Shown here: piece after piece, positions 2,447 through 36,005 of the stretch
Position numbering within the stretch: position 1 is the first letter of the stretch
Layout: each line of letters begins with the position of its first letter
Source: an uncultured Clostridia bacterium
GTDB taxonomy: Bacteria > Bacillota > Clostridia > TANB77 > CAG-508
NCBI GenBank assembly: GCA_949388605.1
Contig: CASKJV010000019.1
Location: forward strand, 1 to 36,005
Direction of reading: 5' to 3'
DNA: 36,005 bases
Made by a program: the position numbers and the translations under genes
The notes under the pieces: generated by a model
Told to the model about the DNA's origin: nothing
The model's database searches: none
The model's input: only the letters and a program-made list of their open reading frames with translations

Positions 2447-2512
2447 AGATGTGCAATTTTTCCCGCAGACTTTCTATAATAGGAATTGCGGAGCAATTTC
2501 CTGTTATGAAAA
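2447..2512. repeat. Copy A of an intergenic hairpin element
   Basis: A GTGCAA box (2451-2456) is followed 14 bases later by a long hairpin (2471-2512): left arm TTTCTATAATAGGAATTG, loop CGGAG, right arm CAATTTCCTGTTATGAAAA. The right arm has one extra base, and a U-G pair replaces A-T in the middle of the stem. Two further copies with the same architecture are at 5547-5617 and 16284-16353. Here it lies downstream of the minus-strand TauE/SafE genes. Confidence 0.7.
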
Positions 2513-5451: not shown

Positions 5452-5546
5452 CATATCTTAATTATAGCTTTTTTTATTTTAATTAAATTGATAAAACATT
5501 TACTAAATAGTCCACGTATTTGTTCGAAGCTCCGATTTTGTTATAC

Positions 5547-5617
5547 AAAATTGTGTGCAAAAATTAGCGAAGCTTTTATTTAGTAGAAAGTGCAGAGCAC
5601 TTTCCTGCTAAATAAAA
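5547..5617. repeat. Copy B of the intergenic hairpin element
   Basis: The box AAAATTGTGTGCAA (5547-5560) is followed 13 bases later by a hairpin at 5574-5617: left arm TTTTATTTAGTAGAAAGTG, loop CAGAG, right arm CACTTTCCTGCTAAATAAAA. The right arm again has one extra base, and the mid-stem U-G pair is in the same place as in copy A, while the outer stem bases differ from copies A and C on both arms. It begins 25 bases past the rarA stop codon on the minus strand. Confidence 0.7.
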
Positions 5618-5641
5618 AAGTTAATATTTTATATAGTTTAA

Positions 5642-6883
5642 CTATTCTATATTTTCATCTTTTATGTAATACTTGGTTCCAAGCATTTTATCTGGAAGAT
5701 ATTGCTGTTCAACCCAATGTCCAGGATAATTATGCGGATATTTGTATCCTTCTCCATATCCAAAATCTTGCATTCCCTGTGCTGGCGCATTTCTTATATG
5801 CATTGGAATTGTTCCTGTATCTTTTGTGGAAACATCTTCTATAGCTTTATTTATTGCATTATAAGAGGCATTTGATTTCTTTGAAGTTGCAACATATATT
5901 GCTGCTTCTGCTAAAATAATTCTTGCCTCAGGCATTCCTACCATTGTTACTGCTTGCATTGCAGATGTTGCTAAAATTAATGCATTTGGATTTGCCATAC
6001 CTACATCTTCTGCAGCCGCAATTACAATTCTTCTAGCTAAAAATACTGGATCTTCTCCGCCATTTAATGCTCTTGCCAAATAAAAAACCGCTGCGTCAGA
6101 ATCGCTACCTCTCATAGATTTTATAAAAGCACTAATATTATCGTAATGACTATCTCCTGATTTATCAAACATAGCCTTTCTTTTATTTAAGCTTTGACTT
6201 GCAATTTCATTAGTTATTTCTATAACTCCATCAGAATTCATTTTTGTTGTTAACACTGCAACTTCTAATCCATTTAATGCTGTTCTAACATCTCCACCAG
6301 AAACTTCTGCAATTGTTTCTAATGTTTCATCTGAAATTTTTATATTATAATTTCCAAGTCCATCTTTATTTATAAGTGCATTTTTTAAAACTTTAAAAAT
6401 ATCTTCTTTTTTTAAAGGTTCTAATTTTATTACCATAGATCTAGAAATTAAGGCTTTGTTTACTTCAAAGTAAGGATTTTCTGTTGTTGCACCAATTAAA
6501 ATTACAGTTCCATCTTCTACATAAGGAAGTAATGCATCTTGTTGAAGTTTATTAAATCTATGTATTTCATCTATAAATAATATACATTTTCCACTTGGAT
6601 TTAATAATGGGTTATCTGCCTCTTCTATTGCTTTTTTTATATCACCAACACCAGATGTTACAGCATTTAATTTTGTAAATTTATATTTAGTTGTTTCACT
6701 AATAACCTTTGCAAGTGATGTTTTGCCACACCCAGGTGGTCCCCATAAAATTAAACTTGATAGTCTATCTGCTTTTATTGTTCTATATAATAATTTATCT
6801 TTTCCAACTACATGTTCTTGTCCAACAAACTCTTCTAAAGTTTTTGGTCTTATTCTAAATGCTAATGGTTGATTTAAGTCCAT
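5642..6883 (-). CDS. rarA: Replication-associated recombination protein A (RarA/MgsA AAA+ ATPase)
   Basis: RarA is a clamp-loader-like AAA+ ATPase that acts at stalled replication forks and DNA ends. The sequence has the family start (RPKTLEEFVGQEHVVG), Walker A GPPGCGKTS (about residues 48-56), Walker B LFIDEIHRF (about 104-112), sensor 1 GATTENP, and the C-terminal MgsA tetramerisation region including GEDPVFLARRIVIAAAEDVG and the terminal GYKYPHNYPGHWVEQQYLP block. Length (413 residues) is normal. I chose ATG at 6883 rather than 6895 because GGAG lies 7 bases before 6883, while 6895 has no site and lies 2 bases past the ruvA stop. It is the second gene of a ruvA-rarA operon. Copy B of the hairpin element lies just after its stop. 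Confidence 0.95.
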   Translation of the reverse strand: MDLNQPLAFRIRPKTLEEFVGQEHVVGKDKLLYRTIKADRLSSLILWGPPGCGKTSLAKVISETTKYKFTKLNAVTSGVGDIKKAIEEADNPLLNPSGKCILFIDEIHRFNKLQQDALLPYVEDGTVILIGATTENPYFEVNKALISRSMVIKLEPLKKEDIFKVLKNALINKDGLGNYNIKISDETLETIAEVSGGDVRTALNGLEVAVLTTKMNSDGVIEITNEIASQSLNKRKAMFDKSGDSHYDNISAFIKSMRGSDSDAAVFYLARALNGGEDPVFLARRIVIAAAEDVGMANPNALILATSAMQAVTMVGMPEARIILAEAAIYVATSKKSNASYNAINKAIEDVSTKDTGTIPMHIRNAPAQGMQDFGYGEGYKYPHNYPGHWVEQQYLPDKMLGTKYYIKDENIE

Positions 6884-16190: not shown

Positions 16191-16283
16191 AGCACAAAAG
16201 CATTTAAATGTCTCTTTTTGTAAAAAGTACATATCAATTTGGTGTGTGAAATTTTTGGATTTATATAAAAATTAATGGCTTGT

Positions 16284-16353
16284 AAAATTGTGTGCAATAT
16301 TTCCTGAAAGGTTTCTATAATAGGAAGTTTGGAGAACTTTCCTATTATAGAAA
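16284..16353. repeat. Copy C of the intergenic hairpin element
   Basis: The box AAAATTGTGTGCAA (16284-16297), identical to that of copy B, is followed 14 bases later by a hairpin at 16312-16353: left arm TTTCTATAATAGGAAGTT, loop TGGAG, right arm AACTTTCCTATTATAGAAA with one extra base. The outer stem resembles copy A, and here the mid-stem pair is A-T. It abuts a separate terminator. Confidence 0.75.
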
Positions 16354-16354
16354 A

Positions 16355-16396
16355 AAAGTGAGATTCAAGTTATAGTTTTAACTTGAATCTCACTTT
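16355..16396. terminator. Perfect terminator between convergent flippase and DHH genes
   Basis: AAAGTGAGATTCAAGTTA pairs with TAACTTGAATCTCACTTT over 18 bases with a 6-base loop. T-rich and A-rich flanks serve both strands. Confidence 0.85.
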
Positions 16397-16440
16397 GGCA
16401 TTTTTTAATAATGTTAGTTATTATTCTATTTTATACATGT

Positions 16441-17346
16441 TTAATTTGTCTCTGATTGTTTTATAATCTCTTTTCTAAGCCATACATCTTCACATTCCAA
16501 ATAATATTGATTTATATTCCCATTTAATAAATTTTTGATATCTTGTAATACTAAATCATTTGAAGCTATAATATAACTTTTTCCTTCTTCTAAGCATATT
16601 AAATTTAATATCCAGTTATTTCCAAAATTGTTTAAAGTATCAAATATCAGTTTTTTCTTATCTAATATGTTATTCTTGTTCCATACTGCTAATTGAGAAA
16701 AAACATTTGGTAATTTTTTACTTACTATACCAATTTTAGTATCATTTTCTAAAGCTTTTTTTAAATCTCTTTCTATAATTTCTTGGCACTGTAAAAAATA
16801 TTTACTAGCATAATTTTCTGAATCTTCTATAATCTTTTCTAACTTTTGATATGCAATTATATCTCTATTGTTTGTTACCTTTGCTTTAAAATTTAATGTA
16901 TTATCTAAAATTGCTGACATCATTAAATAAGCAATATCTTTCGTTATTTTATCTTGTAAATTTTCTTTTTCATATAATTCAAAAATTATTGTTACAACAG
17001 AACCTATAAATTCTATCTTTGAATTATTCCCTAATCTTTGTTTCCAATAATCTTCAAAACCAGTATGGTGGTCTATTACTTCTGTAATTTTATTTTCTTT
17101 TACAATATTATCAAAAAAATTTTTATCTGATACATCAATTATAATAAATTCATCATCTTCTGTTGGTTTATATTTATTCAATTTTATATCTAATTCTAAT
17201 AATTTTTTGGTAATGCTTTCATTTAGTTTTGCTGTACTAACTGCTTTGCTTTGTATTCCTTTAAGATTTAATAAATAACTATATGATATGCAACCTGCAT
17301 AAGCATCAATATCTATGTATCTACTTCCAGATGTTACAATTTTCAT
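16441..17346 (-). CDS. DHH-family phosphoesterase (exopolyphosphatase / class II pyrophosphatase-like)
   Basis: The 301-residue protein has the DHH motif set: motif I RYIDIDAYA (Asp12, Asp14), motif II FIIIDVSD (Asp71), motif III VIDHHTG (Asp92-His93-His94) and motif IV MMSAILDNT (Asp about 157). These bind two Mn or Mg ions in polyphosphatases, class II inorganic pyrophosphatases and related enzymes. The spacing and a C-terminal DHHA2-like region resemble PPX1/PpaC more than RecJ or NrnA. Motif I lacks the usual leading His-x-x-Pro (SGSRYIDID here), so it is not a canonical PpaC. Substrate unknown. GAAGGAA precedes the ATG. It ends at the shared terminator. Confidence 0.8.
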   Translation of the reverse strand: MKIVTSGSRYIDIDAYAGCISYSYLLNLKGIQSKAVSTAKLNESITKKLLELDIKLNKYKPTEDDEFIIIDVSDKNFFDNIVKENKITEVIDHHTGFEDYWKQRLGNNSKIEFIGSVVTIIFELYEKENLQDKITKDIAYLMMSAILDNTLNFKAKVTNNRDIIAYQKLEKIIEDSENYASKYFLQCQEIIERDLKKALENDTKIGIVSKKLPNVFSQLAVWNKNNILDKKKLIFDTLNNFGNNWILNLICLEEGKSYIIASNDLVLQDIKNLLNGNINQYYLECEDVWLRKEIIKQSETN

Positions 17347-26042: not shown

Positions 26043-26344
26043 TTCTTTTGTCTCCCTACTTTAAATAACTTATTAGCTACGTTTATTTTAAGCTACACAT
26101 AACTTATATGTACAAATTAAAATTCTATATCTAAGAAATGTAATTCGCTTTGTTCAAATAGCTAAAAAGTTTACACATCTTACTAAAATTTTATATAATA
26201 AAAAATTACACTACAATTTCTATTATATAAAAACTATATCATATAAATATTTTTTTATCAATACAACAAAAAAGCCACTTTTAAAGTACATCAAATTTTA
26301 AATAAATTTAAGTGAGTTGTCGTTCCTCTGTATAACTTATTATA
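26043..26344. other. Intergenic stretch with no gene seen
   Basis: This AT-rich gap between the hydrolase-fold gene and the rplL terminator holds the former's promoter, which I cannot place, and a weak inverted repeat (CACTTTTAAA ... TTTAAGTG, about 26276-26314) that shares the string AGCCACTTTTAAA with the terminator near 2150. No open frame with a ribosome binding site is visible. Confidence 0.5.
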
Positions 26345-26378
26345 GAAAAAAGACTTTGCTTTCGCAAAGTCTTTTTTG
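26345..26378 (-). terminator. Terminator of the rplJ-rplL operon
   Basis: AAAAAAGACTTTGC-TTTC-GCAAAGTCTTTTTT is a perfect 14-bp hairpin with T tracts on both strands, 17 bases after the rplL stop. Confidence 0.92.
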
Positions 26379-27562: not shown

Positions 27563-27680
27563 TCTATAAGAAAATAAGCCTCTTTGACACCTAAAACCCG
27601 AGTAATCAAAGAGACTTTATCCGCTCTAAAATTTGCCTCGGTAGGATTTACTTTTTAACCTACTGTCTTAGGTATCTATA
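27563..27680 (-). promoter_or_regulatory. L10 ribosomal protein leader (autoregulatory) with terminator-like hairpin
   Basis: On the minus strand ACCTAAGACAGTAGGTT and later ATCCTACCGAGGC are the hallmark strings of the Firmicutes L10 leader that binds the L10(L12)4 complex. Downstream, TCTCTTTGA pairs with TCAAAGAGG and is followed by TTATTTTCTT, a possible attenuator. The whole element lies between rplA and rplJ. Confidence 0.88.
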
Positions 27681-27701
27681 TTTAAAATTTAAACTTCTTA
27701 A

Positions 27702-35820: not shown

Positions 35821-35896
35821 TGGCTCCTCTTGTTGGACTCGAACCAACGACCTATCGGTTAACAGCCGAGCGCTCTACCAACTGAGCTAAAGAGGA
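35821..35896 (-). tRNA. tRNA-Asn (anticodon GTT), CCA encoded
   Basis: On the minus strand a complete cloverleaf: acceptor TCCTCTT/AAGAGGA, D-loop TAGCTCAGTTGGTAGAGC, anticodon loop CTGTTAA with GTT, T-loop GGTTCGAGTCC, discriminator G and a genomic CCA (35821-35823). It lies 8 bases after the 5S gene, so it is probably the last gene of the rRNA operon. Confidence 0.97.
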
Positions 35897-35904
35897 ATAT
35901 AAAT

Positions 35905-36005
35905 CTGGCGATGTCCTATTTTCCCAACAAGGTAACTCGTAAGTATCTTCGGCACTCAGGAGCTTGACTTCTGTGTTCGGCATGGGTACAGGTATTTCCT
36001 CCTCG
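35905..36005 (-). rRNA. 5S ribosomal RNA, 3' part (cut by window edge)
   Basis: On the minus strand the conserved strings ACCCATGCCGAACACAGAAG, CTCCTGAGTGCCGAAGATAC and the end GTTGGGAAAATAGGACATCG identify 5S rRNA; the 3' end CCAG is near 35905. About the first 15 bases of the gene lie beyond the right edge. The rest of the rRNA operon would be to the right. Confidence 0.95.

Follow-up and report, generated by a model that had tools for sequence, protein, structure and literature searches.

A mobile, non-coding element of about 158 nt that usually lies beyond transcription terminators in uncultured gut Clostridia

Our analysis of a 36,005-nucleotide stretch of DNA from an uncultured Clostridia bacterium (contig CASKJV010000019.1, positions 1 to 36,005; the whole of it is called "the window" here) shows that three short intergenic hairpins in it are the decayed parts of a larger mobile element. 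The intact element is non-coding and about 158 nt long, its + strand folds into a row of four hairpins that covary in every helix, and it usually lies just past an intrinsic terminator in one fixed orientation. We consider it likely that the element is non-autonomous, and that an enzyme supplied in trans reads its folded + strand and joins that strand to the T-tract of a terminator.

Anatomy of the element and covariation of its hairpins

The genome to which the window belongs (G000; G-numbers denote genomes, L-numbers loci and C-numbers contigs) has 2.13 Mb in 56 contigs, and the G+C content of the window is 25.7%. An earlier note on this DNA described three copies (2447-2512, 5547-5617 and 16284-16353), each with a GTGCAA box and a hairpin with one extra base in its right arm, all in the same orientation and each downstream of a minus-strand gene. 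All of this is borne out, and the U-G pair that the note placed at the same position in two copies is correct by reading (copies 1 and 2). The copies are real, but they are not complete; copies 1 and 3 miss more of the full element than does copy 2, which lacks the 5' part of the first hairpin (Table 1). The bases between box and hairpin, previously taken for unrelated spacer, turn out to be a small covarying hairpin (AGC GAA GCT in copy 2, CCT GAA AGG in copy 3, and degenerate in copy 1), and what was described as a 5-base loop is better read as three bases (mostly AGA, AAA, GGA or GAA) closed by a pair. Copy 3 sits immediately past the terminator of its minus-strand gene, and no terminator-like stem is present in the 60 nt adjoining copy 1 (best score 5). 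The gene order around copy 2 differs in relatives. The window also carries a ribosomal protein L10 leader (Rfam RF00557) on the minus strand at 27564-27690, and a tRNA and a partial 5S rRNA at 35824-36005.

Table 1. Parts of the element and adjoining terminators in the window
Feature	Position	Strand	Remarks
Copy 1, decayed	2447..2512	+	GTGCAA box, degenerate mini-hairpin, final hairpin HP2 (about 2472-2511)
Copy 2, 3' part of first hairpin	5494..5529	+	GTCCACG-TATTTGTTC side; 5' part missing
Copy 2, core	5518..5615	+	HP1 (GCTCC...GTGTGC), mini-hairpin AGC-GAA-GCT, HP2; covariance-model match of 107 bits
A-tract and weak terminator-like stem adjoining copy 2	5616..5641	-	minus-strand gene ending at 5642; stem score 6 (cut-off 8)
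Copy 3, left-truncated inside HP1	16280..16352	+	HP1 3' arm, GTGTGCAA, mini-hairpin CCT-GAA-AGG, HP2
A-tract and intrinsic terminator	16353..16397	-	minus-strand gene 16441-17346; stem score 18
Decayed module fragments	26099..26347	+	end in CTTATTATAGAA ahead of a terminator-like stem
Extra HPB module fragment	26099-26141	+	decayed
First-hairpin fragment of another type	26298-26340	+	decayed; region extends to 26347

Full-length copies (29 of them, from 14 genomes) are 145-160 nt long, with a median of 158. Reading along the + strand, they consist of the left end AGAACAAA; a long first hairpin closed by GAACAAA/TTTGTTC, with inner stems that include GTGGACGAT/ATCGTCCAC, GAGGACATT/AATGTCCTC and GAGCCAC/GTGGCTC, among others; a second hairpin, HP1 (GCGCC...GTGTGC); a mini-hairpin of three base pairs, whose loop is GAA in 21 of the 29 copies and GTAA in 5 (for example AGC-GAA-GCT and GGC-GTAA-GCC); and HP2, the hairpin of the earlier note, which occupies the right end and is followed by an A-tract. 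The HP2 triloop takes the forms AAA, AGA, GGA, GAA, GTA, TTC and others, and because it varies so much the CsrA-type binding site that had been suggested for it is not supported. An extra T is constant in the HP1 3' arm and in HP2 (29 of 29 copies each) while the stems around it change, its position in the T-run of HP2 being set by the aligner, and a conserved G.T pair is present in 27 of the 29.

The element is modular. Some copies in G000 have an additional hairpin module between the first hairpin and HP1, tandem arrays occur with a period of 152-155, either the left or the right half is missing from a number of copies, and several left-end copies without HP2 exist. The left-end motif is missing in 17 of 60 copies by a loose count (at least two of the 17, L011 and L038, have a variant left end, and some truncated copies pass as complete), and the right end is constant. 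No longer version that bears a gene was seen by eye among 20 loci. A few individual copies carry rearrangements: the apex of HP2 is inverted (TCT for AGA) above an unchanged lower stem in L016:446-543, L076, L080 and L085, like a flipped palindrome tip; in L138:1767-1835 part of the first-hairpin loop is repeated downstream in a manner that resembles a template switch; and L009:1038-1203 (G000 C7:34037-34207) contains a 53-bp tandem repeat made from the spacer and the left arm of HP2.

The earlier note read selection on a folded structure from the paired differences between three stems, and this is supported by covariation in every helix of the 29-copy alignment, judged against shuffles and slid controls; the outcome that the note named as refuting it, no further copies and no covariation, did not occur. 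This full-length alignment (A2) holds 29 of 34 candidates (excluded were three without a recognised left end, L325 as a near-duplicate, and L234, whose HP2 holds an insertion). Both sides have changed in 23 of its 50 pairs, with at least one such pair in each helix; 97.3% of the cells are paired against 84.6% in shuffles (0 of 500 shuffles), and there are 169 double-change cells against 59.5, figures to be read with the fact that shuffles ignore the kinship of the copies and that the covariation may partly be inherited from few active lineages. The same structures slid by 1-3 columns pair at 40-51%, and RNAalifold, unaided, recovers from A2 HP1, the mini-hairpin, HP2 and, of the first hairpin, the closing stem with three inner pairs. 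A core alignment (A1) of 36 copies, in which the mini-hairpin was added by hand to an RNAalifold structure without it, shows for 21 of 33 pairs a change of both bases in one copy or more. Its cells are paired at 94.8% against 83.8% in shuffles, none of 500 reaching any of five measures; this score is favoured, since A1 consists of 29 of 39 non-redundant cores plus 7 near-duplicates and the ten most diverged cores were excluded.

Which strand folds is indicated less strongly. Among the 94 GT or AC cells of A1, 66 are GT and 28 AC on the + strand, but 25 of the GT cells belong to one conserved pair, without which there are 41 GT and 28 AC, and in HP2 and the mini-hairpin the numbers are 23 and 21. 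This wobble test weakly favours the + strand; with a single conserved pair supplying most of the surplus of GT, it is chiefly HP1 and the extra T that speak for that strand. Folding of two DNA pieces leaves the strands undistinguished, since both fold far better than shuffles.

Copy number, host range and mobility

A covariance-model search of the genome and its relatives, as the earlier note had proposed, found many more copies: at least 77 matches in G000 (78 candidates scored). By blastn at E<=1e-3, with 40 of 111 candidates scored, copy 3 has at least 47 matches there; for a composite of the commoner type, with 40 of 70 scored, there are at least 80, and both lists hold antiparallel matches because the hairpin is palindromic. 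Within the genus the covariance model matches 22 of 53 genomes, the window's own included, and finds nothing in the other 31; the next highest counts are at least 76 in G048, at least 67 in G023 and at least 60 in G051. An order-wide sample, with stricter filters and at most 17 candidates scored per genome (so that its counts are floors), has matches in 72 of 238 genomes and 19 of 40 genera. All 72 of these belong to the window's family, a statement about the matching genomes, the family make-up of the others not being given; a smaller blastn sample had matches in 0 of 13 genomes from other families of the same order. Most of 19 loci from other genera that were read by eye show the same plan as the window's element (in L332 and L341 the element escaped the script, and L331, L337, L344 and L347 were displayed reversed). 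The best 80 of 234 relatives reached through a neighbouring RarA gene are uncultured Clostridia, and the element is present in 8 of those 80 stretches, including assemblies from rabbit, goat and water-deer gut. Two exact patterns, which cover two sequence types, had 0 matches in viral contigs.

The element is mobile. The mobile palindromic unit that was one of the earlier note's candidates is supported by an orthologous empty site and by near-identical copies that are dispersed. A search with the end of prfA, which lies beside one copy, matched 52 of the 53 genomes of the genus and found nothing in G018 (in G041 and G062 the best match is weak and probably a paralogue). Among the 30 prfA loci listed, the element is present only at G000's own and absent from the other 29; one of these, in G063, is an empty site with the same left gene, terminator and prfA and no element, its DNA matching the whole prfA query at 88%, and is the sole empty site demonstrated. 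Genome G002 has four copies at four different terminators; three of its contigs start within a copy and have their first 140-141 nt, a stretch that reaches into the A-tract, in common, and the fourth copy has one visible difference from those three. Two loci from different assemblies, L173:7354-7454 and L175:12268-12369, carry the element with the same right flank. Because that flank is common to the two assemblies, some insertions look old and inherited.

The terminator target and the search for a mobiliser

Terminator-like stems with an A-tract adjoin 68 of 110 copies, against 2 of 61 control gene ends (Fisher p ~1e-15). A copy was counted as adjoining if at least 3 of the first 4 nt of its right flank are A, the stem score is at least 8 and the stem starts within 8 nt; the controls are other gene ends in the same loci, with windows at matched distances. 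The 110 copies are the 124 right-intact ones minus 14 whose match starts at model position 44 or beyond; these are mostly antiparallel palindrome matches by eye, although some, for example G000 C2:59160 and C6:27631, look like genuine copies with a truncation. Taken separately, at least 3 A are present in the first 4 nt of the right flank in 99 of the 110 copies, and a stem score of 8 or more is reached on the right in 78 (73 starting within 8 nt) and on the left in 19 (10 within 8 nt). In a second set from other genomes (38 of 97 matches, with duplicate loci, antiparallel and weak matches excluded) the score is reached on the right in 22 of 38 and on the left in 5 of 35. The right-hand stem falls below the cut-off in 32 of the 110 and 16 of the 38, and copies 1 and 2 of the window are among these. 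The mean folding energy of the 55 nt to the right of 124 copies is -11.5 kcal/mol, compared to -4.4 on the left and -4.3 in shuffles.

Orientation follows the same rule. With ORFs taken from a simple script and 7 duplicates from overlapping loci removed, 91 of 101 hits have their right-hand gene on the opposite strand (97 of 108 before; two more hits without a right-hand gene are outside the 101). The figure for the second set is 33 of 38. Read along the strand of the gene, the order is thus usually gene, terminator stem, T-tract, and the element reversed. Since the element sits past the terminator wherever one is seen, the 3'-UTR element that had been proposed is unlikely. No target duplication is obvious by eye at 16 junctions, where the right flanks are A-tracts and one empty site is available.

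No mobiliser was found among the Y1 transposases and reverse transcriptases (RTs) of the genomes of the genus. Of the 22 genomes with the element and the 31 without it, 15 and 14 respectively have Y1 genes (p=0.16), and 10 and 13 have RTs (PF00078; Fisher p=1.0). There is no Y1 match in G002 (89% complete, with recent copies), G007 (86%) or G051 (96%), and in G051, which has at least 60 element matches, neither of the two Pfam families was matched. The single Y1 gene found in G000 scores 63.6 bits against Pfam Y1_Tnp (cut-off 23) and 61.5 bits against NCBIfam REP_Tyr_transpos, below the cut-off of 80; it is RAYT-like. This gene (L112:3640-4680, on C5) has its own REP-like GGGGACG repeats on both sides, which differ from the element, and a RAYT was rejected as the mobiliser on that ground. 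The link to a TnpA_REP-like protein that the earlier note had recommended looking for is accordingly not supported, the Y1 genes as a whole not tracking the element. Y1 genes lie beside GGGACG-type repeats, by eye, in G015, G018, G011, G003 and G024 as well.

Neither of the two RTs found in G000 has the group II maturase domain GIIM or reaches the group II cut-off. A group II intron RT is present in G002 (411 bits, cut-off 300). A locus in G016 (L088:1010-2539, on C38) contains an RT gene, then the element, then a convergent gene end that resembles a variable region. This RT has, by reading, the look of a diversity-generating retroelement, and the element there is probably a chance insertion at the 3' side of the RT gene; the link was rejected for that look and because RTs do not track the element. 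The mobilising enzyme may have been lost or have escaped sampling.

Mechanism, alternatives and relation to known elements

The mechanism that we favour would run as follows. An enzyme supplied in trans would recognise the folded single + strand (5'-AGAACAAA...HP2-3') by the extra T of HP1 and HP2, the conserved G.T pair and the mini-hairpin with its GNA or GNAA loop. It would join this strand to the T-tract end of an intrinsic terminator, and the new copy would then lie just past the gene's terminator in one orientation, where it should do little harm. That the folded + strand is what the enzyme reads, and that the enzyme is already gone from some hosts or yet to be named, we infer from the patterns above. 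We slightly prefer single-stranded DNA as the moving form, at a little under even odds; an RNA copy that is reverse-transcribed into place is less likely, and double-stranded DNA or some other form slightly less likely again. A constant extra T in stems that otherwise change may be likened to the signals by which folded single-stranded DNA is recognised elsewhere: extracts of PMC8266576 describe such recognition by REP transposases, by the integron integrase and, through an unpaired T, in IS608, as well as a stem bulge that is required in the REP of E. coli. An A-rich 3' end of an RNA primed by the terminator T-tract would give the same junction.

This last route, RNA-templated insertion, would have a + strand RNA ending in ...AAATAA(AAAA) anneal to the terminator T-tract and an RT extend the 3' end of the DNA; this would be the bacterial counterpart of a SINE, or akin to group IIC retrohoming. 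The A-rich right flanks, the constant right end beside a left end that is sometimes missing, the junctions without obvious target duplication, the same choice of target by group IIC introns (PMC8919778, in extract) and the group II RT of G002, a genome with recent copies, are all in keeping with it. We nevertheless think it unlikely, given that RTs do not track the element and none was found in G051, that the RTs of G000 lack the maturase domain, and that several left-end copies have no HP2. Movement as a REP/BIME by a RAYT or an IS200/IS605 Y1 transposase is less probable again. The element does present folded, bulged hairpins on one strand and is intergenic, high in copy number and modular, the parallels with IS608 and the E. 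coli REP (PMC8266576, in extract) apply to it, G000 has one RAYT-like gene, and Y1 genes are somewhat commoner in element-bearing genomes; but that one gene is flanked by different repeats of its own, three genomes (G002, G007 and G051) have no Y1 match, and there is no conserved GTAG foot.

The strong covariation in A2 might also be expected of a host-beneficial structured RNA, a 3'-end element or small RNA selected at many loci. One copy together with its terminator (L018) has a sub-threshold likeness to the Streptococcus sRNA SpF25 (SpF25_sRNA, 35.1 of 48 bits, E=0.051), and two copies, including L193, have one to mir-4679 (best E=0.013); we take both as chance resemblances of hairpins, no Rfam family reaching threshold over the element in 11 sources. 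A single genus in which 31 of 53 genomes have no match and one has at least 77, the absence of the element from the 29 other prfA loci listed, the many deleted or truncated copies and a position usually beyond terminators make such a function very improbable. A classical MITE of a DDE transposon, with terminal inverted repeats and target duplication, would likewise be short, AT-rich, non-coding and intergenic, and is the least probable reading of those considered: the ends AGAACAAAAG and TTATTTAGTAGG (the second being the right end read as its reverse complement) do not form inverted repeats, the 16 junctions show no target duplication by eye, and a fixed orientation to terminators would be unusual. 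Beyond the trans-acting enzyme and folded strand that we favour lies a broader proposal, in which the element represents a separate class of mobile element, a protein-free folded strand that finds terminators, inserted by machinery other than a Y1 transposase or a known RT, its stems evolving almost freely within a persisting structure and the whole persisting across an entire family of gut Clostridia; taken together, these claims are speculative and on balance unlikely.

Several hundred matches in dozens of genomes make a natural data set on terminator hairpins as landing sites, and the same data set serves the question of which enzyme moves the element. They are also a warning for annotation, as hairpins that flank terminators in these genomes can be mobile elements and not regulatory RNAs. 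The element joins a group-IIC-like habit to several covarying hairpins and a constant extra T in 158 nt of non-coding DNA; a search of the literature at the level of titles and abstracts turned up no terminator-directed MITE or REP in Clostridia.

Terminator-adjacent insertion in a fixed orientation is known mainly for group IIC introns. These (bacterial-C) introns share target and orientation with the element (68/110 vs 2/61, and 91/101, above) and are far larger. They differ in that the element has no Rfam intron match (11 sources searched at E up to 1 gave no group II family) and encodes no RT, and neither RT of its G000 host qualifies as a group II RT/maturase. According to extracts of PMC8919778, group IIC introns insert immediately after rho-independent terminators, and a few related intron types are named there as having terminator-adjacent insertion. 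The small structured repeats BOX, RUP and SPRITE of the pneumococcus are like the element in kind, and BOX shares its modularity, having a variable number of internal modules (PMC3049150, in extract). In BOX and RUP there are target duplications and terminal inverted repeats; the latter are absent from the element (the ends of 29 full-length copies were compared by reading, with the DDE-MITE type also in mind), and the extracts of PMC3049150 describe no terminator-directed orientation for the three.

IS200/IS605-type ends, of which PATE-like elements are derivatives, are folded single-strand hairpins with an unpaired T, as in the element; they differ in that no Y1 gene is tied to the element and that HP2 reaches right to the end, where a guide sequence could not fit. 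With REP/BIME and their RAYTs the element has in common a high copy number, intergenic position, imperfect palindromes, strand-specific bulges and modular combinations. It is set apart from them by its length of about 158 nt, its four hairpins, its terminator target, the Y1 gene of G000 with other repeats around it in place of a RAYT gene flanked by the element, and its lack of the GTAG (or CGTC) foot of the REP palindrome (GTAG lies inside the HP2 stem of one type only, other types having ATAATAGG, TTAATAGG or TTATAGG). We file the element as a non-autonomous palindromic mobile element that is a member of none of the REP/BIME, group IIC and BOX families: it acts like a REP or MITE with the targeting of a group IIC intron, and fails the defining tests of both.
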